Source of the DNA: Paramacrobiotus metropolitanus
Taxonomy: Eukaryota; Tardigrada; Eutardigrada; Parachela; Macrobiotidae
DNA length: 64,000 nt
Assembly: GCF_019649055.1 (NCBI RefSeq)
Contig: NW_026570222.1
Span: 558,001-622,000 of the forward strand
Direction of reading: 5' to 3'
Part shown: piece after piece, positions 35,182 to 64,000 of the stretch
Layout of the letters: the number at the start of each line of letters is the position of its first letter
Position numbering within the stretch: the stretch's first letter is position 1
Made by a program: the position numbers and the translations under genes
Notes under the pieces: model-generated
What the model was told of the DNA's origin: nothing
The model's input: only the letters and a program-made list of their open reading frames with translations
The model's database searches: none

Positions 35182-35418
35182 TGACGTGTACTGGCGTCCC
35201 TTAGTACACATCGGTACTACTTTACTACTTCTACCCCTACTACTAAGGCTTAGGCTTTACTACAACTTCTACGCGAGTCCTGACCCCGAGTCTCTAGTTC
35301 GACTTCTCAGAAATCTCCAGCAGAGAACTTTGACCGCGACTTGCCATTTCGACTTGACCGCGCTTCAATGACGTAGCTCAACCTATTGTTCTAGTGTACT
35401 AGTTGACCTCATGTTCTC

Positions 35419-35463
35419 ATTAGTCCACGTGTAGAGATGCAGCGGTGTGATTAGTCCACGTGT
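35419..35463 (+). promoter_or_regulatory. Duplicated E-box motif in LTR U3
   Basis: ATTAGTCCACGTGT occurs at 35419-35432 and again at 35450-35463, about 100 bp upstream of the TATA box. CACGTG is a canonical bHLH site. The pair is a likely enhancer; the binding protein is unknown. The same pair is in the 3' LTR. Confidence 0.45.
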
Positions 35464-35558
35464 CCTTAGATGTCTTCTATTGGCTAGCGTGTAAATCCCT
35501 ATTGTTCTCAGACCCGTACCTGCGCGTACGAAGAGCCAGCACTTGCGGTGCCCAGGGC

Positions 35559-35568
35559 TATATAAGGC
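35559..35568 (+). promoter_or_regulatory. LTR TATA box
   Basis: CTATATAAGG, the only strong TATA box in the LTR. RNA would start near 35590-35600, giving U3 of about 410 bp and R+U5 of about 565 bp. Confidence 0.7.
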
Positions 35569-36158
35569 GCTCGTCGCCCATTGTAATGTCAAGAGTTGTA
35601 ATCCCAACAAAAGTAGAGTCTTGTTACTCGATCTGATTAACTTCAGGCTTTTGCTCTGGTCTTCTCTTTCCAAGTGAGGCTGTTCAAACTGACCTCTGGG
35701 TGACCTTTCACCTATTGTCAGGGGTCATTCCTCTACTTCGTCGACGTGCATTATCATCTTCGGATAGTCTCGTGACGTAACAGGTTACCCACTTGATCCC
35801 ACTTGTTTGCCGTGACCTTTCGGTCTCTTCGATCTTCATGCCCTGTAGCGCCAGGTTGATGGAGTTCTCATACGCTTCAGCTACCATCTAGCGTCGGACA
35901 GGTAACGTATAACTTCACGCATCTCTTGTGCTTTCCTTTCGTGTCTTCTCTTTCAGCAGGCTTTCGAGTTCCGGATCCTCTTCTTCATCCTAGCATATCA
36001 TCTCATACTTGTACATCAACATCCTTAACCTTTCGCTCCATGAAATACATAAGAAGTTGAGATAAGAGTAGCTCTATTTTCCGACTGGTCGTGGTTGGGA
36101 AGTGCAATTTCACCACCGGCACACCGCGTTCGTTCACCCTATTCTCTATTGCACGACA

Positions 36159-36173
36159 TGGCGCCCAACGTGG
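36159..36173 (+). promoter_or_regulatory. Primer-binding site, tRNA-Lys(CUU)
   Basis: TGGCGCCCAACGTGG directly follows the LTR CA end. Its complement matches the CCA-ended 3' terminus of animal tRNA-Lys(CUU) over 15 nt, the normal minus-strand primer arrangement. Confidence 0.85.
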
Positions 36174-45784: not shown

Positions 45785-47668
45785 GGAAACTGTACATAGC
45801 AGTATAAGCGTTGTTAACTTCAGTAGATAAGAAATGACGTAGGGAAGCGGCGTGTACGTAGGAGCTGCAATTCGCCTGGTATAAGCGCCTATAGTTGCAT
45901 AATCAGTAGGCAGTGCTTTAAAATAGAGAAATTTGATGTAATGAATAGCAGTGTGAAAATTTTTAGCATGGGAAAGCGTGGTTAACTGTAGAGCAATGGC
46001 TTAAGAGCACTTCCACAATGCGGTCAACATTATGCTCAGTTAAAGATTAATAGAGCTGTATGAAGTCAGGGCAATGGTGATTTTAGAATTTAATTTTTGT
46101 CGAATATTGTAGTGCATAGGCAAACACATACATCGGGACAGTTGAGGCTGAGATCACTGAAAAAGTCCAGTCAATTTAAGAGTCACAGCGGTTAATTGTA
46201 GTCTTATGCAGCGCTTAAATGGAAATCTAAATTTTTCATTTTTTTGCTCAGAAGTATGCGAATTATGGTACAGTATATTGGTAATCAGAACTTAAGAAAT
46301 CAGCTTGTATGAGTTACTATTGTTTTGCGTATGTGGAAATTAGAATTCAGCGTTGTGAGAAATTGTAGCTTAAAGGCTAATAAAGTACTGCATGTCGCTC
46401 AGAGTGCTCACTATAAGTACACGCTACTTTGCAGTATGATTCCGGTTTTGAGTACAGATGTGGTGAGCCGTAGTAGGATGGCTAAAACGCAGGGAATTCC
46501 ATATATTGTTGTTCGAATCAGCCATTTAAGTCAAGTATGGATTTAACAGGTACAAGGCGGTTAAGAAATTTAAGTTTTTATGAATAAAAATGTAAATGGA
46601 GGGAATAATTTTTGGACAAAAGATGTCAGTAAATTTTTGATTCAGCCAATGAAAGTAAGAGAATTTGGAACTATGAATCGGTATCTGACAGATATAGAAA
46701 ATTGCAGCATGATTTCGTGTAAAATAGGAATTGTAGCGAATCGTAGTACAGGGGTTGAAACCCAGACCGACATCCGTTTTAAGAACCAGATGAGTTAGTG
46801 TATTAGTGGATTTAGCCAGCGCTAAGGTGGCTTGGAATTTTAGTTTTTGCGGTTGTACGTAGTATAAAGGCTTGGAGAGCAGCAAGCCATCCACAACACT
46901 AAGTCCTTAAAAGTACGCGTCAAAGTGTGAATGTATGAACAAAAGTGAAACGTCAAAACTTAAACTTTTTGGTTTAGAGATTATGTTTTTGCATAAGAAG
47001 ATTCCTATAGGATCGGAAAAGTAGCAAATCGGACTGAGTAGAAATGACTTTTGAGTTGGTTATGAAAATATGTATATTGCGGCATGTATTATTTAACTGT
47101 AGTAAACATGAAATTTCGTAGAATACTGGCTGTATGGTTCAGTATGTGCTGTCTCGAAACGGTACGCATTCTTCATCTTGAAGTGCGAGAAAAACAATTA
47201 TTAAAATTTATTTTTTTTTATCGCAAGTTTGTAGAATTGCGGCAGAGCACGGAGTGGCCGTCTCAAGCCAATGCAGTATGTGAAAATTTATTCTAGCAGA
47301 TGTGAAAAAGTGTAGTGTAATGACAGCTGCAGTTCTTCTTGGCTATTGTTGTTGATAAGCAGCTAATAAAACAAACAGGAGAAGTTTGTATTCATTTTTC
47401 GAGAAAATTAGAATGAGAGATTGAGTTTTTCGCGGAAATACAGATAGTATAAGCAAAATTAAGATATACGGAAAAGCGAGTACTTTTTGGCGAGAAATGA
47501 CAGAAACGGAATGTGAGTCATAGGTGGAGTAACTGGATGACGTAGTATTCAGCACGTGTCTGATTAGTGGTCAGCGATAGTGTGCTTTGTGGATCGCGGA
47601 ACTTCTTGTTTGAGTAGTGTAGTTCTGAGCGGTGTAGAACCTGTCCTTTAAATTTGAGAGTGTAAATT
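45785..47668 (+). other. Non-coding stretch of element
   Basis: 1.9 kb without a convincing gene; the short frames at 46325-46546 and 47084-47296 lack support. Base composition (frequent GTAG, CAGT, TTTTTG) is like the inter-array sequence further right. Probably holds the promoter or 5' UTR of ORF A. Confidence 0.5.
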
Positions 47669-47971
47669 ATGAATCCTTCGCGTGTTGGAAGACTTGATAT
47701 TTTGGCTCAGCACTTTGATAAGTTTAGTTCTGAGAAATCTGTTGAAATGCCAGCGTTGATCAAACCTGATGCGGAAGGCTTGATTCGCAGCGGTACGAAA
47801 ACGATTTTCGTACGCCAGTACAATCGCGAAAATGGCGAGAAAAGTGTGTTCGTGACTACGATCGAAGAAGGGCCGGAGGCGGAGAATTCGGAGTTTTGGG
47901 TGAAAATTCACAGTCTGGTGGACGAGCAGCTGCAGAAAGCTGCGCAGCAACAGAATGCGGGTCAGAACTGA
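47669..47971 (+). CDS. Element accessory ORF A (100 aa, unknown)
   Basis: ATG at 47669, TGA at 47969-47971. Unrecognised. Compact mixed alpha/beta-looking sequence (PALIKPDAEGLIRSGTKTIF, FVTTIEEGPEAENSEFWVKI) with a Gln/Ala-rich C-terminal helix. Codon use is richer in GC than the flanks. A stem-loop and AATAAA lie about 290-330 bp downstream, suggesting its own mRNA. Confidence 0.6.
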   Translation: MNPSRVGRLDILAQHFDKFSSEKSVEMPALIKPDAEGLIRSGTKTIFVRQYNRENGEKSVFVTTIEEGPEAENSEFWVKIHSLVDEQLQKAAQQQNAGQN

Positions 47972-48259
47972 CCAGTGAAACGTACGGAGGAAGTGCGCGG
48001 AATTGTCCTTCCGGTATTCTGTTATTTGAGCTTTCAGTGAAAGCCTGTCTTATTTTGAAATCTTTATTTTTTGTGAGATTTACGGATTTTAAGCTTTAAT
48101 TTTGTGATATTACACGGTGGGGAGAACTCAATGGTGTAAGCGCTGTAAAAACAGCGGATTGAATGCGGTGTTGCGATAATTGCTTGCAGTAATTACTTGT
48201 TGTGGTGATTGATTGCGAATTCATAGAGTTCGTGGGAGAATTTGTCTTTCTTCAGTTTT

Positions 48260-48300
48260 GAACACTTCCGAATTGAAAGTGTTCGGTATTTGTCAATAAA
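48260..48300 (+). terminator. Stem-loop and poly(A) signal after ORF A
   Basis: GAACACTT (48260-48267) pairs perfectly with AAGTGTTC (48277-48284). AATAAA follows at 48295-48300. A GT-rich downstream element (GGTGTATTTCCGGTTG) lies at the right distance. Confidence 0.5.
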
Positions 48301-48942
48301 TTCGACTTCGACGGTGTATTTCCGGTTGTTCGTACAGTATAACGTACCGAATGTATCCCAGCTGGGATATTAGCAGCAAAACTGATAGAAAAAGTTTAGA
48401 GGTATGAAAATGCATCGTGAAAACGCAAATCAGTGTGAAGAATGTTTGTGCACACCTCCGAAATGTAAATGATCAGCAGTTGGGAAGAAAAAGGACTTCC
48501 GAGTACTTTGGTGTAGCATGACAGAGCAAAATACAGAATCCTGTATCGTAGCGTAACGAAGTGTGGTGTAAGTGTGTACACACAGCGCGGAGAACCCAGC
48601 AGTTTGGGGATACATTTTGTAAATTCCTGATGTGTATTTTCGTCTGTCAGTTGTAAATTTAAGGTAGAAAACCTAATTCTCTATCTCCCTGAACGAAAAG
48701 GAAGGAGAGATTGGTGATTTTTGGGTGAGAAAGAGCAGCTTTTTGAAAGTTAGCGGTGTAGCGAGCCTAGGCTCAATAAATCAGCTGTGTATCGACTGCG
48801 TAATCGCAATGTTGTGGTTTTTGTACTTCAGATTTTCAGATTTTAACATTTTTATTCCTTTGAGATTTTTGTCGTGCTTGGAGTGGTTTGATCGTTTGAT
48901 CTTTGAAATCTAGCACTTGGTAGTGCGAGTGTATTGATTTTA

Positions 48943-49509
48943 ATGATGGCAGCAGCTTTTCGCGCGGATAAGAGTGGACAGGAGTTGATTGTTCCTATTC
49001 CTCGTCGTATTAGACGCGTTGAGCCAGTTGAGAGCTCTGCTACGGAGAATGTTGTTGTTTTGCGAGCGGATGGCGAACCTATTGATTCGCAGCGACCTGT
49101 GGCATGTCGCCCATGTGACTTGAAACGACGACCAGATATCAGTGGTTTGGAGAGAGCGTTGGAAAAGCTCGATCTCAACGAGGAGAAGAAGGCAGCGAAG
49201 AAGCGCGAAGCAGTCACTGGAATTTCAGTGAGATTTGGTGTGAAACGTTCGGGATTTACGGTATTTCGTCGAACGGAGGTTCCTTTTAAAAACACAACAA
49301 TGCATTTGAAAGGAGAAACGGCCCTAGTTAACGAACTTGTGCAGAAATTACGCGAGCGCAGATTGAAGATACGTCGTGTTTGGCAAAATGGTCGAATTGT
49401 GTGGATGTTGGGTCCTACTTTCGTAGTTCCGTGGCGATGGTCGGCGAAGGTGAGAAATCGTCCGATGCAGCACTTTCGGTGGTACACGTTTCCTAAGGAT
49501 CGTCAATGA
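48943..49509 (+). CDS. Element accessory ORF B (188-189 aa, basic, unknown)
   Basis: ATGs at 48943 and 48946, TGA at 49509. Strongly basic with RRIRRVEP, a charged helix (ALEKLDLNEEKKAAKKREA) and an Arg/Trp-rich C-terminus (RRVWQNGRIVWMLGP, VPWRWSAKVRN). It could be a nucleic-acid-binding protein by composition, but no family is recognised. Another AATAAA precedes it at about 48775, and one follows at 49708. Confidence 0.6.
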   Translation: MMAAAFRADKSGQELIVPIPRRIRRVEPVESSATENVVVLRADGEPIDSQRPVACRPCDLKRRPDISGLERALEKLDLNEEKKAAKKREAVTGISVRFGVKRSGFTVFRRTEVPFKNTTMHLKGETALVNELVQKLRERRLKIRRVWQNGRIVWMLGPTFVVPWRWSAKVRNRPMQHFRWYTFPKDRQ

Positions 49510-49707
49510 AACAGTTTTGTAACTGTGATGGATTATGGTGTTTGTTGTTGGAAGAAATCGTTTGAGAAATGAGCATTTCGGTAGTGATTTGTGCGGTAAT
49601 GATTCCGGTATGATTGTCTTATCTTGTTGAATTTGTACACTGATCTCTTTTGTTGTGGAGTATTGTTCTGATAAAACAAGTCAGAAGAAACTGTGCAGTG
49701 CGTTGTA

Positions 49708-49713
49708 AATAAA
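49708..49713 (+). terminator. Poly(A) signal after ORF B
   Basis: AATAAA about 200 nt downstream of the ORF B stop, followed by the first tRNA-like unit at about 49813. Confidence 0.45.
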
Positions 49714-49812
49714 CCGACGATAGAGTTATGCGTACGGCTACGTGCAGAATTGCGGATTAAGACAGCACAAAATTATCAGTCAAATGCAGTAAATTTAAGC
49801 AATTTATAGGAA

Positions 49813-49915
49813 ATTCGTAGTGGCCGAGTGGTTAGCGAATGCGTCCGGATGAATCTCGTAATATACTTAGTAATTCAAAGTTATGAGTTCAAAGCCAGTA
49901 TAGGTCAAAATTTTT
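49813..49915 (+). other. tRNA-like unit 1
   Basis: A box TGGCCGAGTGG at 49821-49831, identical to the Ser/Leu tRNA D-arm start. B-box-like GAGTTCAAAGCC at 49885-49896. Pol III-type T run at 49911-49915. A long variable region is possible. The acceptor stem does not pair. Confidence 0.5.
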
Positions 49916-50002
49916 GACTGTTATTTTTGTCAGAAGCGATGAAATAGGTAGCAGTTATGAGCAAACATGTTAGCGATATAGAAAAACGAGCAATTATAGA
50001 AA

Positions 50003-50091
50003 TCAGCAGATAGCGTGGTGGTTACGATCTTCAGCGAAGTCGAGTGTTAAAAAACCACAATCGCGGGGATCAGTCCCAAACGATTATTTTT
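50003..50091 (+). other. tRNA-like unit 2
   Basis: A box TAGCGTGGTGGTTACG from 50011. B-box-like GGGATCAGTCCC at 50066-50077. T run at 50087-50091. Confidence 0.5.
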
Positions 50092-50129
50092 GCAGTTTAT
50101 TTTGTGAATTATCGGTAGTTTAGTGCAGA

Positions 50130-50200
50130 GATCCATAGTAACGTCGTAATGGATTAAGCTCTGTGTAACCGGGATCGAGTCCCTGGTAAAATTTTATTTT
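50130..50200 (+). other. tRNA-like unit 3, shortened
   Basis: A-box-like TAACGTCGTAATGG at 50138-50151. Very good B box GGGATCGAGTCCC at 50171-50183. TTTTATTTT follows. Only about 33 nt separate the boxes, so the anticodon arm is reduced. Confidence 0.5.
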
Positions 50201-50447
50201 TAGTATTTATCCGGAAGTAGCAATATGTTGCAGTATGTTAATAGAAATTTCACATAACATCAGAAATCGTAGTGTAATGTTTCAACAGACAATCCTACAA
50301 GGACCCGAAGTGATTACTAACAAAGAAAAATAAAAATAACAGATGTTGAAAAGTGGTAGAATTATAGGAAAAACTTCACCTTTTGTATTTACTGTATAGT
50401 GATGTATTTTCTCTTATAGCGGTATGAATTTCTGTAATTTTCAGTAA

Positions 50448-50575
50448 AGCCTCAGTAGCGTAGTGGTAGACGCCACGGACAATATTACGTTCTGTTTGTT
50501 CGGAAGTTGATATCCTGTCGGCATACATATGGTTGATCCTTCAGAAATCAGGATAGCGCTTGTAGGCAACTTTTT
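50448..50575 (+). other. tRNA-like unit 4
   Basis: A box TAGCGTAGTGG at 50456-50466, followed by TAGACGCC as in real tRNAs. B-box-like GGTTGATCCTTC at 50531-50542. T run near 50571. Confidence 0.45.
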
Positions 50576-50591
50576 ATTCTTGTTTTTAGCG

Positions 50592-50705
50592 AGACTTGTA
50601 GTGTCTTATGGGTAGTAACCTTGTAGTCGCAGAACAGAGAAACCTTTAAAGCAGCATTTGTTTCATGTGTTCCAGAGTTCGAAGCTGAGCACAGTCATAA
50701 TTTTT
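50592..50705 (+). other. tRNA-like unit 5
   Basis: Header TAGTGTCTTATGGGTAG near 50599. B box GAGTTCGAAGC at 50675-50685. T run at 50700-50705. Confidence 0.45.
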
Positions 50706-51807
50706 GGTAATTTTTACGTAAATTCTTGTAGGATTTATATTTGTAAATATAGGGCAGTATTTATTGATAATTATCAGTGGTGTTTGGAATTGTAATTTTA
50801 GTAATTTCGTAGTTGGCGCAGTGAGTGCGGCCTTCGTGATACTTTCGCATTGCATACCAAGAGAAACTGGTATCAACTCTTCAAAACAATTTTTGACGCG
50901 TATTATTTTTCGGTAGATGTATCTTGCAATTTTTAATTCACGGAAAAGTCAGAATGTTATTATTTAGCTGTAATTTATAGGGAATTAGTTTTTATTTTGG
51001 CTGTATATGTAAACTTCGAAATATTAGCGTGTAGTAAAAGTCGTAGAGCAGTGGCTCCATTGAACGAACGCATCAGGAGTACGCTGAGAAATCTTATGTA
51101 TACAGAGAATTGAATTGGTATTAAAAATTCTTTTTCCTTTGTAAAGCAGTAATGAGTGTCTTGTAGTATTTTTGGAGAATAGTTGGTGTCAGAAAAATCA
51201 TAGAACTTCAAAACGTATGGTAGTACTGATGTTAGGCGCTTCCGGTGTCATCTTTCCTCATCAGTTACTAGCTAATATTTTTCAGAATACGTACGGTAAA
51301 TCCTTCAGTATTTGTGTATGTGCGGAAATGTATGTAACAAATTATTCACTTCAGTATAATTAATTATGTGTGTAGGAGATTTTCCTTTATTGACGGCGGA
51401 TTATGTGGATTTTAGTAATTACTATAGGCAGAAGTAGTAGTACAGTGACTATAAGATAAATCTGTACAGTAGCGTTTAACGTATGTTCATGTCACAAGAA
51501 ATTTGGCAGTACGTCTGGAAAATTCATTTTTATCAAAAAAGATAGGAAAATATTATTGTGATAAATGTGCGGATTATGGAATTCAGAATTATGCAGTATT
51601 AAATCAGCGGCAGTAATGACGTTTATATGCTTCCGTATGGTCAGTGGTATGAGCCAGTTAGATTTTAACACGACAGTCAGTATTGTGTGTCTTTGAACGG
51701 CAGAATTCTTCAGTGTTGCAGTCTGAGTTTGTGATACTTTTAGTGGCAGATTTTCGATTTGATTGCGGTGTTTGAATCATTCCTTGTGTTGAGAATTTCG
51801 TATTATC

Positions 51808-52194
51808 ATGTCGAAACGTAGCGAGATTATTAAGCAGCACAGCGGTGCTCGAGCTCTTTTGTTTCCTGAGAATGCATTCGATGATCGCGTGAAAGTGGCA
51901 GACAGTGTGAGAGAGCGTGTGATGGAAGATCTCTCCTCCAAAGTTCTCGATTGGCACGTGAAAGACGATTTGAAGAACGAACCTAATGCGGTGAAAGTTG
52001 CGGAGAAACCGAATGTCGAGACTCCGGTGCAGTCTCGTGAAGTTCCGAATGAAGCAGAGAAGGCGATGACCAGTGGGTCTCAGCAGTCAACTATGAGTAA
52101 GGAAGAAGCAGACAAAGAGTTCTTTCGTAAGTACTATCGTCCGTATAATATTCCGAAGCCGAGAATTGATCCTCATTTTCCTCATGGTTGGTAA
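51808..52194 (+). CDS. Element accessory ORF C (128 aa, unknown)
   Basis: ATG at 51808, TAA at 52192-52194. Unrecognised. Helical charged N-terminal half (DDRVKVADSVRERVMEDLSS), a disordered Ser/Glu-rich middle, and a tyrosine/proline C-terminus (KYYRPYNIPKPRIDPHFPHG). GC content is raised relative to the arrays on both sides. No close AATAAA seen downstream. Confidence 0.6.
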   Translation: MSKRSEIIKQHSGARALLFPENAFDDRVKVADSVRERVMEDLSSKVLDWHVKDDLKNEPNAVKVAEKPNVETPVQSREVPNEAEKAMTSGSQQSTMSKEEADKEFFRKYYRPYNIPKPRIDPHFPHGW

Positions 52195-52513
52195 TGGACA
52201 TGTTGTTGATTTTGAAAGGAATGATTTTTCTTGGGATTTTGTGATTTATCGGTGATTATAGCCTTTATTCAGAGATTTTAGAGAAATTCCCTTATGTTTG
52301 TAGAGCAGCATTTGGCAGCATTTCAGATTTCATTCTCAGATATATCAGTCTCCTTCTTCAGTATTTAGCTGTGGATTTATTCAGAGGATTTACTAAAGCT
52401 TTATTTCGACAGTATTGTGTGTATCGGTTGTTTGCGGATTAAAGTGGTGGTTTTATCGTGATATTGTTGTCAGCGGTTAGCGGTGTGCGAACGTAACAAC
52501 AGCAGCAGTGGTG

Positions 52514-52660
52514 GTGTTGGCGCCCCCCGGTACCATCTTTCTTCACCATTAACTTGCTGTCTGTAAACTCACAAATTATGAAAACAGTAAAGCGCAAATA
52601 TGTAGTAGGGAGCGACACGGCATGTATATTGCACGACAATGGCGTGTAACCCGTTGTCCC
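52514..52660 (+). repeat. Dispersed GC-core repeat, copy 1
   Basis: GTGTTGGCGCCCCCCGG at 52514-52530 and the following ~110 bp resemble 60741-60840 (GTGTTGGCGTCCCTCGG, then a shared CACTTGC/AAATTAT/GTAAAG series). A shorter relative is at about 61375-61395. Function unknown. Confidence 0.45.
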
Positions 52661-52872
52661 AGTAAACTTTGAACAGTCAGAAGTCGGTATTTCGTGTTAT
52701 TACAGTATGAAAAAGCAGTAATATTATGGTATCGAAATTTGTAGTGTAGTGGCGCAAGGAACCATGTCCACGCAACGGCTGAGGTTCGCTTTGAGTAATC
52801 AAAACTATTAAGCAGTGTGAATTTTGGAACTTTAACTTTTGCAGGGTACAGTGATATTTTTATTTCGGTGAA

Positions 52873-52970
52873 ACTCGTAGTGGCCTAGTGGCTGAGAGAT
52901 CTCGCTGTAGTTATTCAAGACAAATAGTGTTAGCGATGATCGGAGTTCAACTCCTGACTTTTGAATTTTT
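52873..52970 (+). other. tRNA-like unit 10
   Basis: A box TGGCCTAGTGG at 52881-52891. B-box-like GGAGTTCAACTCC at 52942-52954. Six-T run at 52965-52970, a strong Pol III terminator. Confidence 0.55.
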
Positions 52971-53008
52971 TGTCTCGTAGCGTGTTTATTTTCAGTAGAA
53001 TTATCGAA

Positions 53009-53110
53009 TCTCGTAGTAGTCGAGTGGTTATGAAGTGGCGCTACAAATCTGGATATTGTCATCGGTAGCAGTATAGCCATAGTTCGAAACCCGAGCAAGT
53101 TGTAATTTTT
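53009..53110 (+). other. tRNA-like unit 11
   Basis: A box TAGTCGAGTGG at 53017-53027. B box AGTTCGAAACC at 53081-53091. The 5' CTCG can pair with CGAG at 53092-53095. T run at 53106-53110. Confidence 0.55.
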
Positions 53111-53663
53111 ACTTTTCGGAGTGGATATTTTTAGGATTATTATGAAATGCGTAGTGTCCGAGTTGTTATGCGGTAAAGGTGCACGGTACAAATAACTCTA
53201 AGGTATCCAGTTCGACTTTGCGAGTAGTGTAAATTGTTGCGAAATTATGTTTTTAGAAGTTTTAAAATATTGCAGTAAAAACTCAATATGGTATTAGTAG
53301 CAGCAATTTTTCAGTATTAGCGGTGTTGTAGATTTGTAATTTTTAGTAAACGCGTAGTGGCGCAGGGTACATGCATTACAGATCATAGTAATTTCTGTCA
53401 AATAGTAGGACAAGTAGGTTTCGAGCTCAAACCCGTGCTAGCAGTAAGATTTTCCTTTTTGCATCCAGTTTTGAGCAGATGAATGTCTTTTTATATTGGT
53501 GAATTGTAGGAATAGTATTATGAATTATGAAATAATAAATAAAAATCAGAGAATTTCTATAGCAGTTTATGGAGATTTGTTGTCGTATATAATTAGCGAT
53601 TTATGGTAGTCAGTTATACAGTAGCAGTTTAGGGCGTAGTAATTTGCGGCGTTTGTTGTGAAA

Positions 53664-53775
53664 ATTCGTAGTAGTGCAGCGGTAGCAGCGGTCGAACTAT
53701 GTAACGCTGAGTCAGATTTTAAACGGCTTTACTTCCGTAGCACTTGTTCGATTCCCCTTAAGGGCGAACTTTTTG
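53664..53775 (+). other. tRNA-like unit 14
   Basis: A box TAGTGCAGCGG at 53672-53682. B box TGTTCGATTCC at 53745-53755. The 5' TTCG can pair with CGAA just before the T run at about 53769-53774, a partial acceptor stem. Confidence 0.55.
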
Positions 53776-54245
53776 CAAAACTTTGACTTTATTTTTGTGT
53801 TTTCGGTATTCAGTAATTATTCCTATTTGTATTTACGGCGTAATTATTTGAGAAATGTTGAAACTTGTATTTGTGGTAATTAAGCGGATAAGTTTTTCAT
53901 ACTTTGCAGACAGACAGTGTATTATTAGCGGCTTTGACAGCTTTAGCAGTATTATCAGCAGTTTTACTTCGTATTTTTATTTTCGTAAACACGGAATTCT
54001 TCTTTCGTATTGAACATCGCGGCAGTATCAGAATACGCCAGAAAAATAAAATCAAAATAGAACTTTTCACCAGTGTTCATCGCAGTTGAACAGTATTCAC
54101 TCGGTAATTTGTGCAAATATGCAGAACAGAATCGCAAAAGGCGATCTGAATAAAATTGAACGTAAATGTACAAGACGTAAGAGAAAAGATAAAAGAAATA
54201 AAATCAATACAGCAATACAGCAGACAAGATAAAAGACTTCGTATT

Positions 54246-54635
54246 TTAGTTCTTCTTGAAACGCTTAGCAGCAGGAGTTTTCAGATGCAGAGATCCATCA
54301 GGTTTACGTGAGAAAACCATAGCAACTGATTTTGGCATGTCTCCACGTATCTCAGTTCCTGGTGCATTAGGACGTTCAGCAATCACGGTAGTAGGATCGC
54401 GTAGCATAGATAGCGTGTCCTCAGCAGTTTCAGTTTTTGGCAGTAGCGGAATAGGATTTGCGGCCAATTGTCCACATAGAGGCATCGGCCCATGCATCGC
54501 AGCAGCATCAATTTTCATGGCAGTCTGACGCAGAACACTTTGTGCATCGGTTCCGAGATAGGGAATTCGTACTTCGATAGTAGTTCCTTCGCGAGCGCAG
54601 CGATCACAGCCATGATTATGCTCCTGAACCAGCAT
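54246..54635 (-). CDS. Element antisense ORF D (129 aa, unknown)
   Basis: ATG at 54635, TAA at 54246-54248, on the strand opposite to the retroelement RNA. It starts MLVQEHNHGCDRCAREG, a possible metal-binding cluster, and ends in a basic KRFKKN tail that could be a nuclear signal. The frame is GC-richer than the flanks. A TTACAG acceptor lies directly before the ATG, so a 5' exon or UTR intron is possible. Unrecognised. Confidence 0.55.
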   Translation of the reverse strand: MLVQEHNHGCDRCAREGTTIEVRIPYLGTDAQSVLRQTAMKIDAAAMHGPMPLCGQLAANPIPLLPKTETAEDTLSMLRDPTTVIAERPNAPGTEIRGDMPKSVAMVFSRKPDGSLHLKTPAAKRFKKN

Positions 54636-54850
54636 TCCTGTAATAATAACAAATTGTTAGGAAATTAATATTTCATAAATTGGGTTAAATCAGCGGAATT
54701 ACGTAGGAATTAATTCAGTAGATATTTACACGGAAATGAAAAAGTATGCGGAATTGTTGTAATAATCAGTATGGAAATAATACGCAGTAAATTATAGGTA
54801 ATTATGCAGTAATTATTCAGGCGGAAATAAGAGATATAGTAAGCGGTCAA

Positions 54851-55534
54851 TTATTTCAGCAGTTTTATCAGATTTTTTGTAAAGCTTTTGATCTTACCGA
54901 CTCCTCGTACTAATTCGTCCGACAGTCCTTGAGTTCGTCGATCTGTCATTTCACGGTATACGATCGCACTCACGAACTTGTCTCCTCCGATAGATATTAG
55001 GCATCCAATTTCCAGTAAGAAGTTTCTTTCCTTATGATAGTACTTGATCCAGTTGTGCAGGCAGACAGTGTACGTTGTTCGGATGACGCGTTGAATCTCG
55101 AATTTCGTCATCGCGTATCCTCCTTCCTCCAGCACAGTCAGAATAGCATTTCGCAGTTGCAATCGTGTGGTAATTTCCTCGTTGCGATCTCGCTGAGTTC
55201 GTGACGATACTTCCAGGAAACAACGTCCTTCTTTCACTCTTTTGCGTAGAAACCCAGAAGTCACAGCAGTCTCGATGTACTTGTCGATATTCAGCATGGT
55301 GAATTCATGGTGTGCGTTGTTCAGTGTGGCTTTCAGATAATCAACATCTACATAAAAGCCAGAATCGGTGTGATGTCCAATGATAGTTCGGACAGCGAAC
55401 TGAAAAGCTTCATGTAGTCGCATTCGTCGTGTGTAAAAACTCGTAGTATCACGATCGAAAATCTGTTCGATACCAACATGTAATCCAGCAGGAGCAGTGG
55501 ATAAGGAAGTAATGGCATTCAGCATAGCGGACAT
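54851..55534 (-). CDS. Element antisense ORF E (227 aa, unknown, helical)
   Basis: ATG at 55534, TAA at 54851-54853. The longest antisense frame, 215 bp upstream of ORF D on the same strand, so the two may form one minus-strand transcription unit. Mostly helical with repeated basic segments (FYTRRMRLHEAFQFAVRTII, LQLRNAILTVLEEGGYAMTK). The latter has a winged-helix look (helix, GGY wing, helix), but that is only a guess. No family recognised. Confidence 0.6.
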   Translation of the reverse strand: MSAMLNAITSLSTAPAGLHVGIEQIFDRDTTSFYTRRMRLHEAFQFAVRTIIGHHTDSGFYVDVDYLKATLNNAHHEFTMLNIDKYIETAVTSGFLRKRVKEGRCFLEVSSRTQRDRNEEITTRLQLRNAILTVLEEGGYAMTKFEIQRVIRTTYTVCLHNWIKYYHKERNFLLEIGCLISIGGDKFVSAIVYREMTDRRTQGLSDELVRGVGKIKSFTKNLIKLLK

Positions 55535-55890
55535 TTCAGTAGTTATAGGTCACGTTTTAAGGAAACTAAACATCTCAGTAATAATTCTGGTAGAAAAACG
55601 TATGAGGAAACAGAACTGAAAATTTTTCGGAAGCAGTGATGACTTTTATAGGCTTGCAACAGGAAATTGTGCAGTTTGCTCAGTGTATGTGTGTATCGCC
55701 CTTGTATGGCAGTGTGTCAGTACAACTCGTAGTACGTATGTTCTTCTCATGTATTGTACGCCTTAGTACTTTAGCGCGTATTTCAGTGCAGTTTTGCAGG
55801 TTGTCTTCTCAGAATTATGGAATTGTCAGTTTTTGCGGTCAGATTTTCAGATTATCAGATCTTAAGTAGTAGGATATTTTTTGTCCTTAT

Positions 55891-55914
55891 TGCACGACTT
55901 GCGCCCAAACGTGG
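55891..55914 (+). other. Relic LTR-end/primer-binding-site sequence
   Basis: TGCACGACTTGCGCCCAAACGTGG matches the 5' LTR end plus primer site (36150-36173) apart from a substitution and shifted single-base changes. It suggests that the right part of the element was joined from another LTR element, or that the leader was duplicated. Confidence 0.6.
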
Positions 55915-56157
55915 TGTTCGAATATGCGGAAATAACCTTCAGATTTAGGAAAAGTCAAATTTTGCAGTAATTTCAGTGTAATTAGTAGCATGCGGTTAAC
56001 CCTCGCGGTATGGCAGTTTCGTGTATCTATGCGTTGAGAGCAATGACAGTGCAGATTTGTTGTGGTTTTTAATTCAAAGAGATACCGACAGTGTTGTGAT
56101 TTCGTCAGAGCAGTGAACTCTTTGTTGTGGTTTTTCGATTTTGAACTTTGTGCAATC

Positions 56158-57186
56158 ATGCCTCCTAAAGCGATTAAGCGTATCCAGAAGCGTAAGAGGG
56201 AAACGAGTTCTTCTTCTTCTTCTTTTTCTTCCAGTAGTAGCAGTTCGAGTACTTTTGACAGCAGTTCTAGCGTTAACTTTGCGGACGAATCGGAAATGTC
56301 TCTAATTTCGATCTCCAGTATTCCTTCGAATGAGTCAGATGTGACAGAAACTCAGAGATTTTTGACAGATGTTGATCCTTGTGCGGTTGATTACATTGTG
56401 AGAAAACCTGATCCTGAAATCGGTAATCGCAGTGACGTAGCAGATGTTGAGAGTGTGCACAGCGGCAACTCCAGTGCAGGTCTTGAGAAGTCAGCGGAAA
56501 TGTTCGATTGTCATCAAGAAGACGGGAAACGTTAAAAAGTGATTTCTACGACTGATACTGAGAGTTTTACGACCTTGATATCTACTCCCAGCGAATCGTG
56601 TGATGACGAAGATGAATTTGCGTCGTGTTCGACCGGTCCTTTACCTAATACAGCGGAGAGACTAGCTAACTTGGCGGATGTGAATGTTGAAGTTGAGTCA
56701 GATCGCAGTTCGGAATTTGAAGAGCAACCCATGGTGTATCACGAGAAAGCTCCTCCGAAACGTGATGAGAAAGGTAACATAGTCCTTCATCCTGGAACTC
56801 GTTTGTTTTTGAATGGCAAGCTATACCATGCCGGAAAACTTATCAGTGTGAAGAAGTTTAACCATTTTGTGCGTAATATGTCCAGAGAACGGAATCGATA
56901 TCTTAAAACTCAGTATTTATTTGCTCATCCTGATTCCATTGAGAGTCTTAACTTGATTGCGCAGTTGCACCGGAAGAATGACAGCGTGGTTGATTTTCCG
57001 ACGCGGATGATGTACAATGGCGGGTTATTGCAGTCGCAGCATATTGAAAAACCTTCCCCAGCAGCAGTGCGGAAGAGGCATCGGGAAAATAGTCCTGAAT
57101 TTGTTGAAATCCCTTCTGTCAAGACGTCGCGTGAATCCTCTCTTGAAATTCCTATTCAGTCTCGTAAGAAGCAACGAACCTTTTAA
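56158..57186 (+). CDS. Element accessory ORF F with one in-frame stop
   Basis: ATG at 56158 (MPPKAIKRIQKRKRE) opens 125 codons to TAA at 56533-56535. The same frame then runs 216 more codons to TAA at 57186. The first part is basic, then a serine run coded by mixed TCT/TCC/AGT/AGC codons, then acidic. The second part has a folded-looking core (HPGTRLFLNGKLYHAGKLIS) and a basic C-terminus with KKQR. Either stop readthrough, two products or one recent nonsense mutation would explain it. It begins 240 bp after the relic primer site, as a gag would. Unrecognised. Confidence 0.55.
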
Positions 57187-57614
57187 GCCTTTGTTGTCGG
57201 TTGGCATTTGTTGAGTTTTTACTTGGAATGGTGTGTAGTATTACGGTACCTACGTGGAAATTGTCTTTTGTTATTTACAGTCGTCGTACAGAAACGGTAG
57301 TATTTTTGTCAGTGCTTTTCGCGGTATTTTCTAGTTTTACTTTTGTTGTACAGATCGGTGTATACGGTGGTATTTTTGTACTATGACGTATTCCACTTTG
57401 TATTCGTTGATCGGTGTGTCGTACAGTACCATTTGCGGATGTGCGGTTGTTCAGTCATTAAAACTTGTGAGCGTCTTAGCGCTAATGCGGTTGAAATTTT
57501 GCAGTCAGAAATCAGTGTGTTGTTTGAGAACTTTGAATTCACTTTTGATTTTTATTCGGTGATTTTATTTTGCGACCTTTTTCACTTATTTCCTGGTCAC
57601 TTTTGTTTGGTATT

Positions 57615-58553
57615 ATGGATCTTAACGCAGCTTTTAATTATATGGTAGATGCTTTGTGTAGTAATGGTCATCAATATCAGAATCAGTATGGTAATCGCGG
57701 AAATTATCGTGGTCGTGGCAATAATCGACGTATGAATTATTATCGTCCTTATTCTCGTGGTGGTTATCGTGGAAGAGCGTATAACGGATATCAGAACAAT
57801 GCTCAGCAGTGGCAGCGTAATCCTCAGTATCCTTTGGCGAATAATGGCGGAAATGGTGTTAACGGTGTTCAGTTAGTTGTACCGGAGAATGTACCTATTG
57901 TTGGCGCAGTTTTGCCTGTTGTGAATAACCCTGGTTGGCAAGCTCAGAACGCGGAAGTTGTCCAGCAGAACATGGCGGCTTTGCAGTTGAATCAGCCTGT
58001 GGCGAACGAGGAAATGGACATTAACGAAGAGAATATTGTTCCTCAACAGCAAGGTCAGAACGTTGCTCCTAATGCTAATGGTGTCATTGGTGTGAATGAT
58101 CAGAATCCTGTGGCGGTTGGCAATGTGGTGAATCCTGAAGTTGTTGCTCAAGTTGCGAACAACGTCCAGAATGCGATGAATGGCGGAAATGTTGCGGCAG
58201 AACCATCTCAGAATGCTGTGGCGAATGAACCTTCAGTTGTGGTTCCTGGTATCGCGTATGTTCCTATGAATGGTGATGGAAGACCTCAGTATCCTTCAAT
58301 CAACCCCTCAGACCTATTTCAGCGTAATGCAGAGGAAGAGCGGCGAAAGCAGTCGGCAGAGCGAGCTCGTATGGCGGCGGATGCTAAACGGAACGATTTA
58401 ACCGGGTTGCAGTCTCGTTCTTCATATCCAGATGTGCAGCGCAGTCGTCTTCGCGTCCAGTCCTCAGATAACCTAGTCGCTCCTGATCCTAGAGCTCATC
58501 GTCGTAATAATTCTGTGGATAATTCTTTGCAGTCAGCCTGTAAACCTCAGTGA
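57615..58553 (+). CDS. Element accessory ORF G, RG/Asn-rich RNA-binding-like protein (312 aa)
   Basis: ATG at 57615, TGA at 58551-58553. The N-terminus has GNRGNYRGRGNNRRMNYY and RGGYRGRAYNGYQNN, like the RG/GNN region of ORF1 (GNRGNYSVRGNSFRGQ), so a duplicated nucleocapsid-like segment is likely. The middle is Asn/Val/Gln-rich and disordered; the C-terminus is charged with EEERRKQSAERARMAADAKR. An AATAAA lies at 58695-58700, so it may have its own 3' end. Confidence 0.65.
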   Translation: MDLNAAFNYMVDALCSNGHQYQNQYGNRGNYRGRGNNRRMNYYRPYSRGGYRGRAYNGYQNNAQQWQRNPQYPLANNGGNGVNGVQLVVPENVPIVGAVLPVVNNPGWQAQNAEVVQQNMAALQLNQPVANEEMDINEENIVPQQQGQNVAPNANGVIGVNDQNPVAVGNVVNPEVVAQVANNVQNAMNGGNVAAEPSQNAVANEPSVVVPGIAYVPMNGDGRPQYPSINPSDLFQRNAEEERRKQSAERARMAADAKRNDLTGLQSRSSYPDVQRSRLRVQSSDNLVAPDPRAHRRNNSVDNSLQSACKPQ

Positions 58554-58694
58554 TGTGACGGGTTGTAACTTTGGCATTTTTGTCATGATTTTGCGGTGTA
58601 TTGTGAATTCCCTTTCGTGTTTATATGTTCTCAATTTTTGCTGTATATACGTTAGCGGAAGTCAAGTTTAAGTTCTCACTTCAGTCGTGTGTTC

Positions 58695-58700
58695 AATAAA
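58695..58700 (+). terminator. Poly(A) signal after ORF G
   Basis: AATAAA 142 nt after the ORF G stop, followed by a GT-containing stretch (CGTTCGGTGTATGG). Confidence 0.5.
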
Positions 58701-58850
58701 CGTTCGGTGTATGGACGAAGTACGAAGTATGGAAGCAGTGATGCAGAAGCAAGCGGAAGTAATTGGAGCAGTAATTTTGAGTTATAGGACATTTTTCATC
58801 ATATTTTAGCTGTGCAGCATGAAGCGGTAAGATTTTAGGTAATGTAGAAT

Positions 58851-61800
58851 TTCGTAGTGCATTGGCTCAGTGATCACAGTCTATAGGCAATTTTAGCGGT
58901 ATTTACGGGTGCTATTGCTCAGTAGTACTATAGCTTGGTGAAATATGATTTTGCAGTCTGGAATCTGAGATTTAATTTTTCGTTGAATTTCGTAGTAAAT
59001 GGGCAGTTGAGTAATAGTATGTGTTCGATTAGCCTAGCAGTATAAATACGTCAGCGTGTTGAAATATTACAGTACTGTTTCGGAAATATGATTTTGCGGT
59101 ATGTCGTTTGAACTTTAACTTTTTGTCGATTTTCGTAGTATTACGGCTAGTAAGACTAAGAATGCTTCGGTAAGCGGTCGGCATTAACACTCTCCTATCA
59201 ATTTTGTGTTGTGCTATAGATTTCTTAATATTGCGGTATGAGAATTAGAGTTTTAATTTTTCGTGGAATTTCGTAGTGTGACGGCCTTGTAGCATTTTCG
59301 GCAAATGCAGTAGCGGCGTTCTAGCTTTGTAGTTCATCAATTGACTCACATCAGCTAAGAGATCACTTAATATTAATATGCGATATGCGGTTTTGACATT
59401 AACTTTTTGTAGTGATTTCGTAGTATCATGGCAGTATGGATGTTCGGTGTAATTTGCCAGAGGAAATGCAGTTAGCGTGTGCAGATATGAATTTGTTGCT
59501 TCGGAATTAGCTTTTTGCGTTAGTTTGCGGTATGAGATTTGGAATTTGTATTTTTGTAGTGATTTCGTAGTATTATGGCTTATTAAATACTGGTATAATA
59601 ACACCTCAGTATATTGCCGAATACTAGACAGACACGGCGAAAATAACTTTGAACTCAGATTAATGCAATATTCCTAGAAAATTGACTTTTTCAGTTTTTG
59701 CGTACTTAATTTCTCGTAGTAGGTTATCAGTAATCGATTGGCTTGTGAAATTTGACGCTAATATTCTCGGATTTATATTTTAGCAGTACAGCATCAGTAT
59801 AATTGTTCAGCAGCGGCATGTTTAGTTTTCCGTGTAGATATCGAATATCGTAGTGTTATGGCGTGTACATCGTACGAAATGTTCATCCTGTGTTAGTAGC
59901 ACGCTTTAATAAATTAAGGCTTATGCCAGTGAAATTTTCCTTTTTGTTGAATTATCTATGGATTAGTAATTTTTACATAGATATTAGCTCTTGTAGTGGG
60001 TATTGGCTTATTTGTCAAAAGCAGTTTGTAATTTAGTACAGTAGTATGTGAATTTTCGTAGTGCGAGAGAGAGCTCATAACAAACAAGTGGTCATTTTGA
60101 GTGTATTAAGCAGTAGTAGTATTAATTGCAGTATATTCGGTAAAATCTCAGTTTTTAGTAATTTGTGTAGTAAAATGTATTCTGAACTGTTAAGCACTTC
60201 TCGGTAGTCAGATTTGCAATTTCCGTCAAAAATGAAGCATGAGATCCTAAGCAGTATTATTTTTGTTGTAAGAATGGTGTATTATTTTGCAGTATGAGCA
60301 GTGTCATTATTAGTCGATATAGAAATTCGTAGTGTGGTGTCCAGCTCGAATGCTGTATGGAAGTTGATCTTGAACGTTGAACTTGTTCCAACTGTGTAAA
60401 TAATGTCAATAGGCAGCAAGAATTTCCTTTTTTCGCAGAAATTGATAGCTGTGTAGTATTTTTGTGCGTTCCCACCCTCCCAATCCCGTTTCAGAAATAA
60501 CTGTGGATGCAGCATGAAATTGGCGGTAGTAATTTTCGTGATTGTTCGTAGTAGAGTGGCTATGGTCGGTAACGTGCCACGCAGTATAGCGGTCTAAATC
60601 AACAGTTCCTCCATCTTAATACGGTTTGTTGATAAATTTAGCCTAGAAAAATAGAACCCTGTTAGTAGAATTTTGAAATTCTTTTTGTGTTAGTAACTCA
60701 GTATTTTTCCCTCATAACAACATCAACATATGCGGTGATAGTGTTGGCGTCCCTCGGTGTCACCAATCCACACTATTCACTTGCATCCCAACAACCAAAT
60801 TATAATCTGTGTAACTCGGCAGTAAAGTACAGAATGTGCGGTAATTTTTGTTCAGTATCGATAACTCGTAGTTCAATGATTCGAATGGAATTTCTACCAG
60901 TTAGATCGATATCACGTTATTAGCAGTGCAGCATGTAATTTTCGGTATTAATTTTTGTTGAACTTCGTAGTGTAATGGTTTTATATCACTGTATCGGCGG
61001 TCATTAAAAATTTACTCCAGCATATATGATATTCGCTTTAATATTCACAAATGCAGAATTTTCAGTACTTTTTACTTTTTGTGGCATGTTAGCAGTAATT
61101 TCTGGCAGTATCGGAATATCGTAGTCTAGTGTTCGTCTATGCAAGGAAATCGTACCAGAACTTTTCCTAATGACTTTGTGCGGTATGGGATTTTCGATTT
61201 AGCTTTTTGCAGTAGTTCGTAGTAGTTTGGCTTATCGGTGTATACGAAGTTGAGCAAGATTCCTTAAATTTCAAATTGCAGTAGTTAAAATTTTCCTTTT
61301 TGCAGTAAATATTAAATAACTTCTTTTTAACACCTTAACACCATAATAACATCTTATACATCTCAACAACATCTTCGCGCCCCCCGTTGGCCCTTAAATC
61401 TTTAACACCCATAAAACACGATAATATATGCAGTGTGTGTATTGTGAGCAACTTTTGGTATAGTAGTTCGTAGTTTATCGGCTTTGTGTTGTCTATGCAC
61501 ATGGATGTGTGTAAAGCCTTATATAAATCCTTAAATACGGTATTTAGAATTTCAGCAGTATTTTTAGTAATCCTTCGTAGTTTGTTGGCGTTAACAGTGA
61601 TCTTGCGCAAATCTTTATATCCTTCAGTCAGTACGTTGAAATATAGGCTTATGCAGTATCAGTTGTCAGTATTTATTTTTAACTCGTAAATCGTAGTGTA
61701 GTAGCTGTTATTTGATAAGATTCAGCATTTGCAACAGCAGTCTAATTCAGTATTTGGCAAAACTTTCAATTTTTTGTCTAACCTCGTAGTTTATCGGCAT

Positions 61801-62602
61801 GCTGAGTCAGCGCGATGCGTAACAGTTTTCCTTAATCAACAGTATGTCGGAATTATGTTTGTGCAGTATGTAGTCGAATTTCAGTGTTTTTGTCGAATTT
61901 CGTAGTGTAACGGTTTTTATATCCATATCGATGTCTTCCAATCATCCCCAGTTGTTTAATCAGTGCGTTTGCAGTATGTTGTGGTTGAACTTTATTTTTG
62001 TGAATCACCGTAGAATTTCGGCTTCAGTGTGTGTTTCTCACCATCCAGTTATAAGCTTCTGATTCAGATTTTGGTCCATGTAGCAGTAAAACTTCTTTTT
62101 CGTTGAATGCTCGTAGTTAGACGGCTTTAGATCCAGCAAATCCTTTATAACGTCTATACTTCAGTAATAATTTGTTGTGTTTTAAATTTGAACTTTTTGG
62201 CTTTGTTTGTCGATGTTACTTTTGCAGTATGATTTTCAGCAGTCTTTAACCTTGTGGTTTATCGTAGTGTAGTGTCTTTTAGTCCATTTACGCAGTACTG
62301 CAGTTGAGTGCTTTGTAGAACAGAATGATGCACAGATCTTACACTTTATCAGAGTCAGCAACTTTAGAATTTTCAGTTTTTGTTAATTCCCGTAGTATAA
62401 TGTCAGTCTAAGCGTTTTGCATTGCGTATCGTCTGAACTTAGTATTCCTTGTCACTGCAGTATGATTAGTAACCTTTATTCGTAGTATAATGTCTTTTTG
62501 TTCGCTTTCTAACACGTTTTAGGCTTAGTACAGATACAACTTTCATTGTTGCAGTTAGTCTTTTTATCTTTTAATTTGTAGCAGTCGATCGTAGTATATG
62601 GG
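58851..62602 (+). repeat. tRNA-header array 3 (about 26 units)
   Basis: Units begin with a header close to YTCGTAGTNNNNNGGC, as in tRNA-Val/Asp/Glu 5' ends (CGTAGTGTAGTGG). Starts near 58851, 58989, 59132, 59270, 59417, 59564, 59713, 59847, 60055, 60326, 60545, 60865, 60964, 61118, 61216, 61467, 61574, 61690, 61793, 61899, 62007, 62110, 62262, 62388, 62478 and 62587. Spacing is about 90-320 bp, often near 100-150. Between headers lies unlike sequence, then a GCAGTAT-type motif and a T-rich tract (such as AATTTTTCTTTTTGT) just before the next header. B boxes are mostly lost; one remains at 59021-59033 (GTGTTCGATTAGC). Confidence 0.65.
60741..60840 (+). repeat. Dispersed GC-core repeat, copy 2
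   Basis: GTGTTGGCGTCCCTCGG and following sequence resemble 52514-52620; see copy 1. It interrupts tRNA-header array 3 between the units at 60545 and 60865. Confidence 0.45.
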
Positions 62603-63040
62603 TTTTAGTCAACTAGCTCGCTTACACTGTTCCCTTTAGACGAATACGATATAACACTTTCACATCAGTCTTTAAAAGCACTTAATGCTAAAACAACATC
62701 TTTTTCAACATCTTTTTAATACGATAACACCCTGGATCTCATGGGCGTTCCTGCTCTCCGCCTTTCCACTTCCTTGGACTTCCGGATTGCCAGTTACGCT
62801 CCAGGATCCGATGACCTATAACACTCAAACTCACTAATAACTTACCGGATCGAGCGTTGTTACTTACCTTTTGATGGCACCGGATAGTCGGGATGGAATT
62901 TGGCGATAGTGCTAGATGTTGCACGCACTATGCGGATGGAGCAGATGTTACTTTTTCCTATGTCCCTATGTTCCTTCCTCTTCGTTCCACGTCGTTCCGC
63001 GAAGCTTCACTTTTGTTCCACTACGATCCAGAGAAATCTC
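62603..63040 (+). other. Element 3' untranslated stretch
   Basis: From the last tRNA-header unit to the polypurine tract. No gene; the open frame 62900-63241 runs into the LTR and is not supported. Confidence 0.5.
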
Positions 63041-63051: not shown

Positions 63052-64000
63052 TGACGTGTACTGGCGTCCCTTAGTACACATCGGTACTACTTTACTACTT
63101 CTACCCCTACTACTAAGGCTTAGGCTTTACTACAACTTCTACGCGAGTCCTGACCCCGAGTCTCTAGTTCGACTTCTCAGAAATCTCCAGCAGAGAACTT
63201 TGACCGCGACTTGCCATTTCGACTTGACCGCGCTTCAATGACGTAGCTCAACCTATTGTTCTAGTGTACTAGTTGACCTCATGTTCTCATTAGTCCACGT
63301 GTAGAGATGCAGCGGTGTGATTAGTCCACGTGTCCTTAGATGTCTTCTATTGGCTAGCGTGTAAATCCCTATTGTTCTCAGACCCGTACCTGCGCGTACG
63401 AAGAGCCAGCACTTGCGGTGCCCAGGGCTATATAAGGCGCTCGTCGCCCATTGTAATGTCAAGAGTTGTAATCCCAACAAAAGTAGAGTCTTGTTACTCG
63501 ATCTGATTAACTTCAGGCTTTTGCTCTGGTCTTCTCTTTCCAAGTGAGGCTGTTCAAACTGACCTCTGGGTGACCTTTCACCTATTGTCAGGGGTCATTC
63601 CTCTACTTCGTCGACGTGCATTATCATCTTCGGATAGTCTCGTGACGTAACAGGTTACCCACTTGATCCCACTTGTTTGCCGTGACCTTTCGGTCTCTTC
63701 GATCTTCATGCCCTGTAGCGCCAGGTTGATGGAGTTCTCATACGCTTCAGCTACCATCTAGCGTCGGACAGGTAACGTATAACTTCACGCATCTCTTGTG
63801 CTTTCCTTTCGTGTCTTCTCTTTCAGCAGGCTTTCGAGTTCCGGATCCTCTTCTTCATCCTAGCATATCATCTCATACTTGTACATCAACATCCTTAACC
63901 TTTCGCTCCATGAAATACATAAGAAGTTGAGATAAGAGTAGCTCTATTTTCCGACTGGTCGTGGTTGGGAAGTGCAATTTCACCACCGGCACACCGCGTT
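63052..64000 (+). repeat. 3' long terminal repeat (cut by window end)
   Basis: First 949 of an expected 977 bp. Matches 35182-36130 with no difference seen when read line by line. TATA box copy at 63429. Confidence 0.95.

Follow-up and report, generated by a model that had tools for sequence, protein, structure and literature searches.

Candidate RNA polymerase III-type units in four arrays inside a giant LTR element of the tardigrade Paramacrobiotus metropolitanus

Four arrays of short units in an LTR element

The 64,000-nucleotide window analysed here, the whole stretch taken from contig NW_026570222.1 of Paramacrobiotus metropolitanus, carries a long terminal repeat (LTR) element of ~28.8 kb that spans from position 35182 to past position 64000. 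Positioned between the gene blocks of this element are arrays of short units. We placed 50 units, all on the plus strand, in four arrays numbered 0 to 3, with 9, 8, 6 and 27 members, respectively (Table 1). Each unit is named by its A box, whose position was set by eye from the header; at least five are poorly registered (46857, 50596, 59992, 62014 and 62397). A preliminary description had counted about 37 units in three arrays; these arrays are real and hold 41 units (8 + 6 + 27), while a fourth array of nine units had been missed. Judged from sequence signals, the family probably encodes about 50 short, non-tRNA units of RNA polymerase III (Pol III) type in four sense-orientation arrays, served by two promoter classes.

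Genome searches covered an assembly of 169.8 Mb in 533 contigs (C numbers below), and ten other copies were fetched for comparison with the window copy, giving 11 in all. Each of the 10 other copies carries at least part of the arrays, which answers a check proposed in the preliminary description; large parts of array 3 are absent from C91 and C17. Gaps between copies that start and end at headers run from 59571 to 60056 (3 of 10 copies) and from 61589 to 61783 (5 of 10), as if units were gained and lost by switching at headers. The LTR pair is identical at 949 of 949 bases, and the insertion is therefore young. With 40 of 122 candidates scored, at least 41 LTR matches were listed genome-wide, including a fragment of 74 bases.

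Table 1. Features of the element in the window. T5, run of five T; dN/dS, ratio of nonsynonymous to synonymous substitution rates; ORF, open reading frame.
Feature	Position	Strand	Remarks
5' LTR	35182..36158	+	977 bp; repeat with 63052-64000
Primer-binding-site-like stretch TGGCGCCCAACGTGG	36159..36173	+	directly 3' of 5' LTR
ORF1, 2742 aa	37203..45431	+	Pfam; Gag-like region by eye
Array 0, nine A-box-like units	45900..47450	+	5 with upstream element, 1 with B box
ORF p101	47669..47971	+	median dN/dS 0.09 over 10 copies
ORF p191	48934..49509	+	dN/dS 0.15; open in 9/10 copies
Array 1, eight units	49801..51230	+	
Unit	49810..49915	+	A box 49821, B box 49886, T5 49911
Unit	50000..50091	+	A box 50011, B box 50067, T5 50087
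Unit	50105..50201	+	A box 50116, B box 50172, T5 50197
Unit	50445..50575	+	A box 50456, T5 50571; closed terminal stem in alignment fold (z -3.7)
ORF p128	51808..52194	+	dN/dS 0.15; open in 6/10 copies
Array 2, six units	52690..53790	+	A/B pairs 52881/52944, 53017/53081, 53358/53424, 53672/53745
ORF p129	54246..54635	-	dN/dS 0.12; open in 8/8 copies
ORF p227	54851..55534	-	dN/dS 0.10 in 3 copies whose fetched stretch held p227
ORF p215	56539..57186	+	dN/dS 0.21; open in 7/8 copies
ORF p327	57570..58553	+	dN/dS 0.09; open in 5/8 copies
Array 3, 27 units	58780..62640	+	A-box-like header, no B box; 19 with upstream element
Upstream element and header, example	59095..59146	+	TGCGGTATG 59095, header TCGTAGT 59133, A-box-like 59136
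3' LTR	63052..64000	+	cut by window end

Promoter-type boxes, terminators and an upstream element

The header motif TCGTAGT occurs 24 times on the plus strand and never on the minus strand of 58600-62700. Across array 3 (58780-62640), the 24 occurrences compare with a shuffled mean of 0.72 and a maximum of 4 in 300 shuffles. For the boxes, also compared with 300 shuffles, the scoring matrices were built on 11 distinct A boxes and 14 B boxes of tRNA genes of the host. Arrays 1 and 2 contain five and four strong A boxes (score at least 9; shuffled means 0.4 and 0.4, maximum 3 and 3) and three and five A-then-B pairs, respectively (shuffled means 0.1 and 0.1, maximum 1 and 2); with the same matrices, the minus strand of the arrays yielded no A–B pair. 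Strong A boxes in array 0 stay within shuffles (2 versus a mean of 0.7 and a maximum of 4), and weak ones there exceed them (14 versus 4.7, maximum 12). In array 3, 26 A boxes score at least 5, compared with 8.9 after shuffling (maximum 19). The tRNA order of A box, B box and T-run terminator is seen in 8 of the 50 units (B box score at least 7) and in the pooled A–B segments of the 11 copies; array 3 does not follow it.

These A–B segments were collected with a single pattern from the array 0-2 stretch of the 11 copies, which returned 70 segments with all B ends distinct. In 66 of these segments, the distance from the B box to the start of the first T5 is 10-16 nt, as it is in tRNA genes. Runs of five or more T are absent from the 4,997 nt within the segments and number 111 in the 4,200 nt directly after; for runs of four or more, the counts are 17 within and 137 directly after. 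Depletion also extends to the units of all four arrays: T5 starts between the A box and 65 nt downstream number 0, 0, 0 and 2 in arrays 0-3, versus 7.1, 5.0, 3.9 and 17.4 under circular shifts, and the fraction of shifts with a count as low is 0.018, 0.019, 0.034 and 0.007, respectively. In 46 of the 50 units, at least 65 nt separate the A box from the first T5. The B boxes and T runs that the preliminary description had placed in the right order in arrays 1 and 2 are thus confirmed by the A–B pair excess and by the T5 position, and its call for a comparison of A and B boxes with shuffled sequence is answered by an enrichment in these two arrays.

Units without a B box mostly carry a second motif, TGCRGTATG, ~41 nt before the A box. 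Allowing up to two mismatches, it is found at -45 to -38 in 27 of the 50 window units; within -50 to -28 it occurs in 28 of 50, compared with ~3% of random places in host flanks and 15% in array 3. One of the eight units with a B box has this upstream element, versus 26 of the 42 without (Fisher p = 0.017). In the fetched stretches of the 11 copies, GC[AG]G[TC]ATG occurs 217 times on the plus strand and 8 times on the minus strand, and its spacing to the following GTAG peaks at 39-40 nt (150 counts, every other spacing having at most 17). Before the units at 46471, 46744, 47313 and 50270, the element keeps its spacing with no T5 seen in between; it is therefore part of the downstream unit.

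The combination is largely restricted to the family. Upstream element plus header gave 79 matches genome-wide (control 0). Family contigs account for 77; one of the other two is on C516 and one on C21, a contig without a known family member. Extending the pattern into the A box raised the total to 95 (control 1); apart from a single match on C516, all of these (94) lay on family contigs. In viral contigs the motif pattern matched 74 stretches, once each and never as an array, which we judged to be chance on an estimate made without computation.

Conservation was measured as mean pairwise divergence between copies relative to random windows of the same units (47 of 50 units, 5,000 draws). For the A boxes, divergence is 0.131 versus 0.198 at random (n = 47; no draw of the 5,000 was as low), and for the upstream element it is 0.148 (fraction as low, 0.002). 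For nine units taken as B-box-bearing, including 50814 with its weak B box, values were 0.055 versus 0.17 for the A box (fraction 0.0004) and 0.084 versus 0.173 for the T run (0.019). Within array 3, the header is kept best (0.136 versus 0.217, fraction 0.0002), beside the A boxes (0.171 versus 0.216, 0.024) and the upstream element (0.178, 0.052); the upstream element of array 1 is conserved no better than chance (0.36). Between the boxes, the bodies range from 0.03 in 53017, which is almost invariant, to 0.42 in 52881, a high value due in part to copies that lack this unit. Retention of the key signals between copies suggests that numerous small RNAs are produced by the element itself.

Nature of the units

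The units are not tRNA genes, a candidate we rejected after finding no cloverleaf with ARAGORN or Rfam. ARAGORN called no tRNA gene in the window, and Rfam at E<=10 over 45400-63000 returned no tRNA, its sole match being a sub-threshold PhrS; 60 host tRNAs score 58-72 bits with the Rfam tRNA family. Whole-unit similarity to host tRNAs lies within shuffles for 10 of the 11 units tested, the exception being A@50456 (15 versus a shuffled maximum of 13). The earlier view of the headers as tRNA 5' ends with A boxes therefore holds for the A boxes, which are enriched, and goes too far as to tRNA identity; its suggestion of repeated tRNA capture finds no tRNA to rest on. Insertion beside host tRNA genes was also rejected: ARAGORN found no tRNA gene in eight flank stretches (95-2,907 bases). 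SINE-like spread (short interspersed elements) was set aside in the same way, with all 12 places matching unit 1 on family contigs.

In principle the arrays could be functionless remnants of captured tRNA genes or SINEs that were duplicated in tandem and have decayed, as the divergence of the units and the variation of their number between copies, with breakpoints at headers, might indicate. Yet divergence is lower in A boxes, upstream elements and T runs than in the sequence beside them, the tested units resemble tRNAs no more than shuffles do in 10 of 11 cases, and family contigs hold all 12 places matching unit 1 and 94 of the 95 matches to the motif pattern. We regard this explanation as decidedly improbable.

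A use at the RNA level fares worse still. Several same-strand ORFs follow one another with arrays between them, an arrangement in which tRNA-like processing sites could cut a polycistronic RNA, or the units could serve as primers or decoys for reverse transcription. Such sites would offer no cloverleaf to RNase P or RNase Z, and complementarity to the element or to tRNAs is not above shuffles: the longest exact antisense match of unit transcripts averages 10.5 against the element (shuffles 10.6) and 7.8 against host tRNAs (shuffles 7.7). The antisense or primer role, raised as primers and decoys in the preliminary description, was rejected at this level, and we consider RNA-level use as a whole highly improbable. 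Alignment folding of 48 of the 50 units (two gave no usable alignment) led us to reject a common RNA fold, and neither of the two units that stand out is one long hairpin of the kind expected for retroviral microRNA (miRNA) precursors.

Pol III small RNAs, another role named at the outset, find support in the promoter boxes, in where the terminators lie, in the scarcity of T runs inside units and in the conservation between copies. A unit would start near the T(T)CGTAG header with its A box. Recruitment would proceed through the internal B box, mostly in arrays 1 and 2, or, in units without one (mostly arrays 0 and 3), through TGCRGTATG ~41 nt before the A box. The unit would end at the first run of five or more T, usually 75-130 nt downstream, giving RNAs of ~85-140 nt. 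By analogy with viral Pol III RNAs, we infer that Pol III may transcribe the units and that the RNAs may act for the element.

Several results weigh against this reading. Lone boxes occur on the minus strand, with one A box scoring at least 9 (array 1) and 3, 2, 3 and 2 B boxes scoring at least 6 in arrays 0-3. By matrix, array 0 has no A–B pair, array 3 has no B box of at least 6 (shuffled 2.7), and 13 of the 27 unit A boxes of array 3 reach 5. Conservation of the B box in the nine B-box-bearing units is marginal (0.114 versus 0.171, fraction 0.054). The seed of the upstream element was picked after the arrays had been seen, and the A positions were set by eye. With up to two mismatches, this element was found at 1 of 30 host tRNA loci, a set in which some loci are redundant and a few A boxes misplaced, and at none of four stretches before host U6 genes read by eye. 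Only two of the 48 folded units have z < -3, A@50456 (-3.7) and A@62592 (-3.8, short helices), and hence no common RNA structure is visible. Finally, units descended from one another and are therefore not independent tests.

Some of these points could instead favour a repeated RNA polymerase II-type initiation or regulatory module composed of the upstream element and header, with the A/B likeness of arrays 1 and 2 partly inherited. The lack of B boxes in array 3 speaks for it, as does an upstream element not seen at the host Pol III genes examined. The A–B–T geometry of arrays 1 and 2 is nevertheless that of tRNA genes, and T5 is depleted in all four arrays; we hold such a module to be improbable. 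The rarity of the motif at the same host genes could also reflect a private Pol III programme, with ~50 small RNAs per element directed by a TGCRGTATG that replaces the B box, perhaps through an element-encoded factor. On present sequence evidence this stronger version of the Pol III reading is unlikely.

The units might also act as DNA, with Pol III factors on the boxes forming insulators or anti-silencing boundaries between gene blocks and any RNA being a by-product. The placement of the arrays between gene blocks, promoter parts kept better than their surroundings and RNA bodies without a shared fold are all compatible with such boundaries. Terminator position and T-run depletion, however, are explained only if short transcripts are made, and array 3 has no B box, the main contact of TFIIIC. 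Insulators, which the preliminary description had also proposed, would leave the conserved terminators unexplained. A boundary function is an unlikely alternative to the transcription of the units as small Pol III RNAs.

The element, its two forms and known systems

Two LTRs, a primer-binding site, gag and a protease mark the element as Ty3/gypsy-like, with Gag and the Ty3/gypsy label assigned by eye and from recall. The first 9 nt of TGGCGCCCAACGTGG are complementary to the 3' end, with CCA, of host tRNA-Lys(CTT). No A–B pair lies in the 977-bp LTR on either strand, and one lone B box of at least 8 is on its plus strand. In ORF1, Pfam identified an aspartyl protease and, weakly, an integrase zinc motif of HHCC type; it detected no reverse transcriptase or integrase core in the window copy. 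A protein search with ORF1 residues 1250-2000 found no relatives, nor were Gag relatives found among viral contigs. ORFs 3' of ORF1 have median dN/dS values of 0.09-0.25 versus the window copy. p129 and p227 (54246-55534) are two minus-strand ORFs within a retroelement, under purifying selection; no relatives of p227 were found, and its AlphaFold model was too poor for use (pLDDT, the model confidence score, 44.9). Distant relatives of the 3' genes, at 68-80% identity, lie at C17:413645-415423, C17:325288-326506, C245:2475-3686 and C344:12442-12886.

A bulged hairpin with the core TGGCGCCCCCCGG recurs at 52486-52575 and 60711-60800 and, in degenerate form, near 51219-51290, and is also present in other copies. 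Its alignment folds give z -4.0 at 60711-60800 (7 sequences) and -2.3 near 51219-51290 (3 sequences). The core matches TGGCGCCCACCGG, the complement of the host tRNA-Lys(CTT) 3' end, at 12 of 13 bases; these hairpins are possibly extra primer-binding sites or dimer or packaging signals.

The family exists in two forms. A probe from the end of ORF1 identified 14 window-type copies, the window included, 11 of which match the whole probe. In C347, C80 and C292 the match breaks off at query position 812-825, an RVT_1 (reverse transcriptase, RT) domain begins ~370-382 nt past its end, and the window match restarts at 50326-50338, inside array 1; therefore, pol occupies the place of the window-form stretch in the RT-bearing members. 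What the window form holds in place of pol is a second pre-RT module together with array 0, p101, p191 and the four leading units of array 1. In the window the exchanged stretch is 43925-50338, and one junction falls inside array 1. With 150 of 1,953 candidates scored in the RVT_1 search, RT-bearing copies number at least three and others may exist. An early idea that the whole family is non-autonomous was dropped once RVT_1 had been found in these three members. All three match most of the remainder of array 1, array 2 and the 3' genes; the array 3 pattern was seen in C80 and C347, and C292 has no exact match to it. In their LTRs, C80 and C292 share 93-96% identity with the window copy.

We found no description of arrays of this kind in the internal region of an LTR element in the open-licence literature. 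Helenus, Ajax and Cassandra (TRIMp3) are small non-autonomous LTR elements of up to 1263 bp whose Pol III promoter lies within the LTR (PMC10886601). Like TRIMp3, the present family is an LTR element with tRNA-like A and B boxes whose RNA is unlikely to be a working tRNA (PMC10886601). Unlike TRIMp3 as described there, it is a coding element of 28.8 kb (2742-aa ORF) with ~50 units in its internal region and an LTR without an A–B pair. The size of the element recalls Burro, giant Ty3/gypsy elements of planarians with an internal region of up to 25 kb and extra coding parts; the word tRNA appears nowhere in the Burro review (PMC6431247).

Bovine leukaemia virus and foamy viruses, which are reported to carry Pol III-transcribed miRNA genes, offer a parallel in a retroelement with Pol III-directed small RNAs. 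Some of those miRNAs come from double-hairpin precursors, whereas here there is no shared hairpin and ~50 units in four arrays.

Viral non-coding Pol III RNAs with internal A and B boxes include the tRNA-miRNA-encoded RNAs (TMERs) of murine gammaherpesvirus 68 (MHV68), adenovirus virus-associated (VA) RNA and the Epstein–Barr virus-encoded RNAs (EBERs). The MHV68 TMERs form a tandem array and have tRNA folds. All of these come from DNA viruses, in contrast to the retroelement described here, and we know of no MHV68 TMER, VA RNA or EBER class with an upstream element in place of the B box. If transcribed, the units would to our knowledge make up more Pol III-type genes than any known virus or retroelement has. 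They would then present two interchangeable promoter classes inside one array system and a natural step series from B-box to upstream-element promoters, and would offer a way to test the function of small RNAs in a retroelement.

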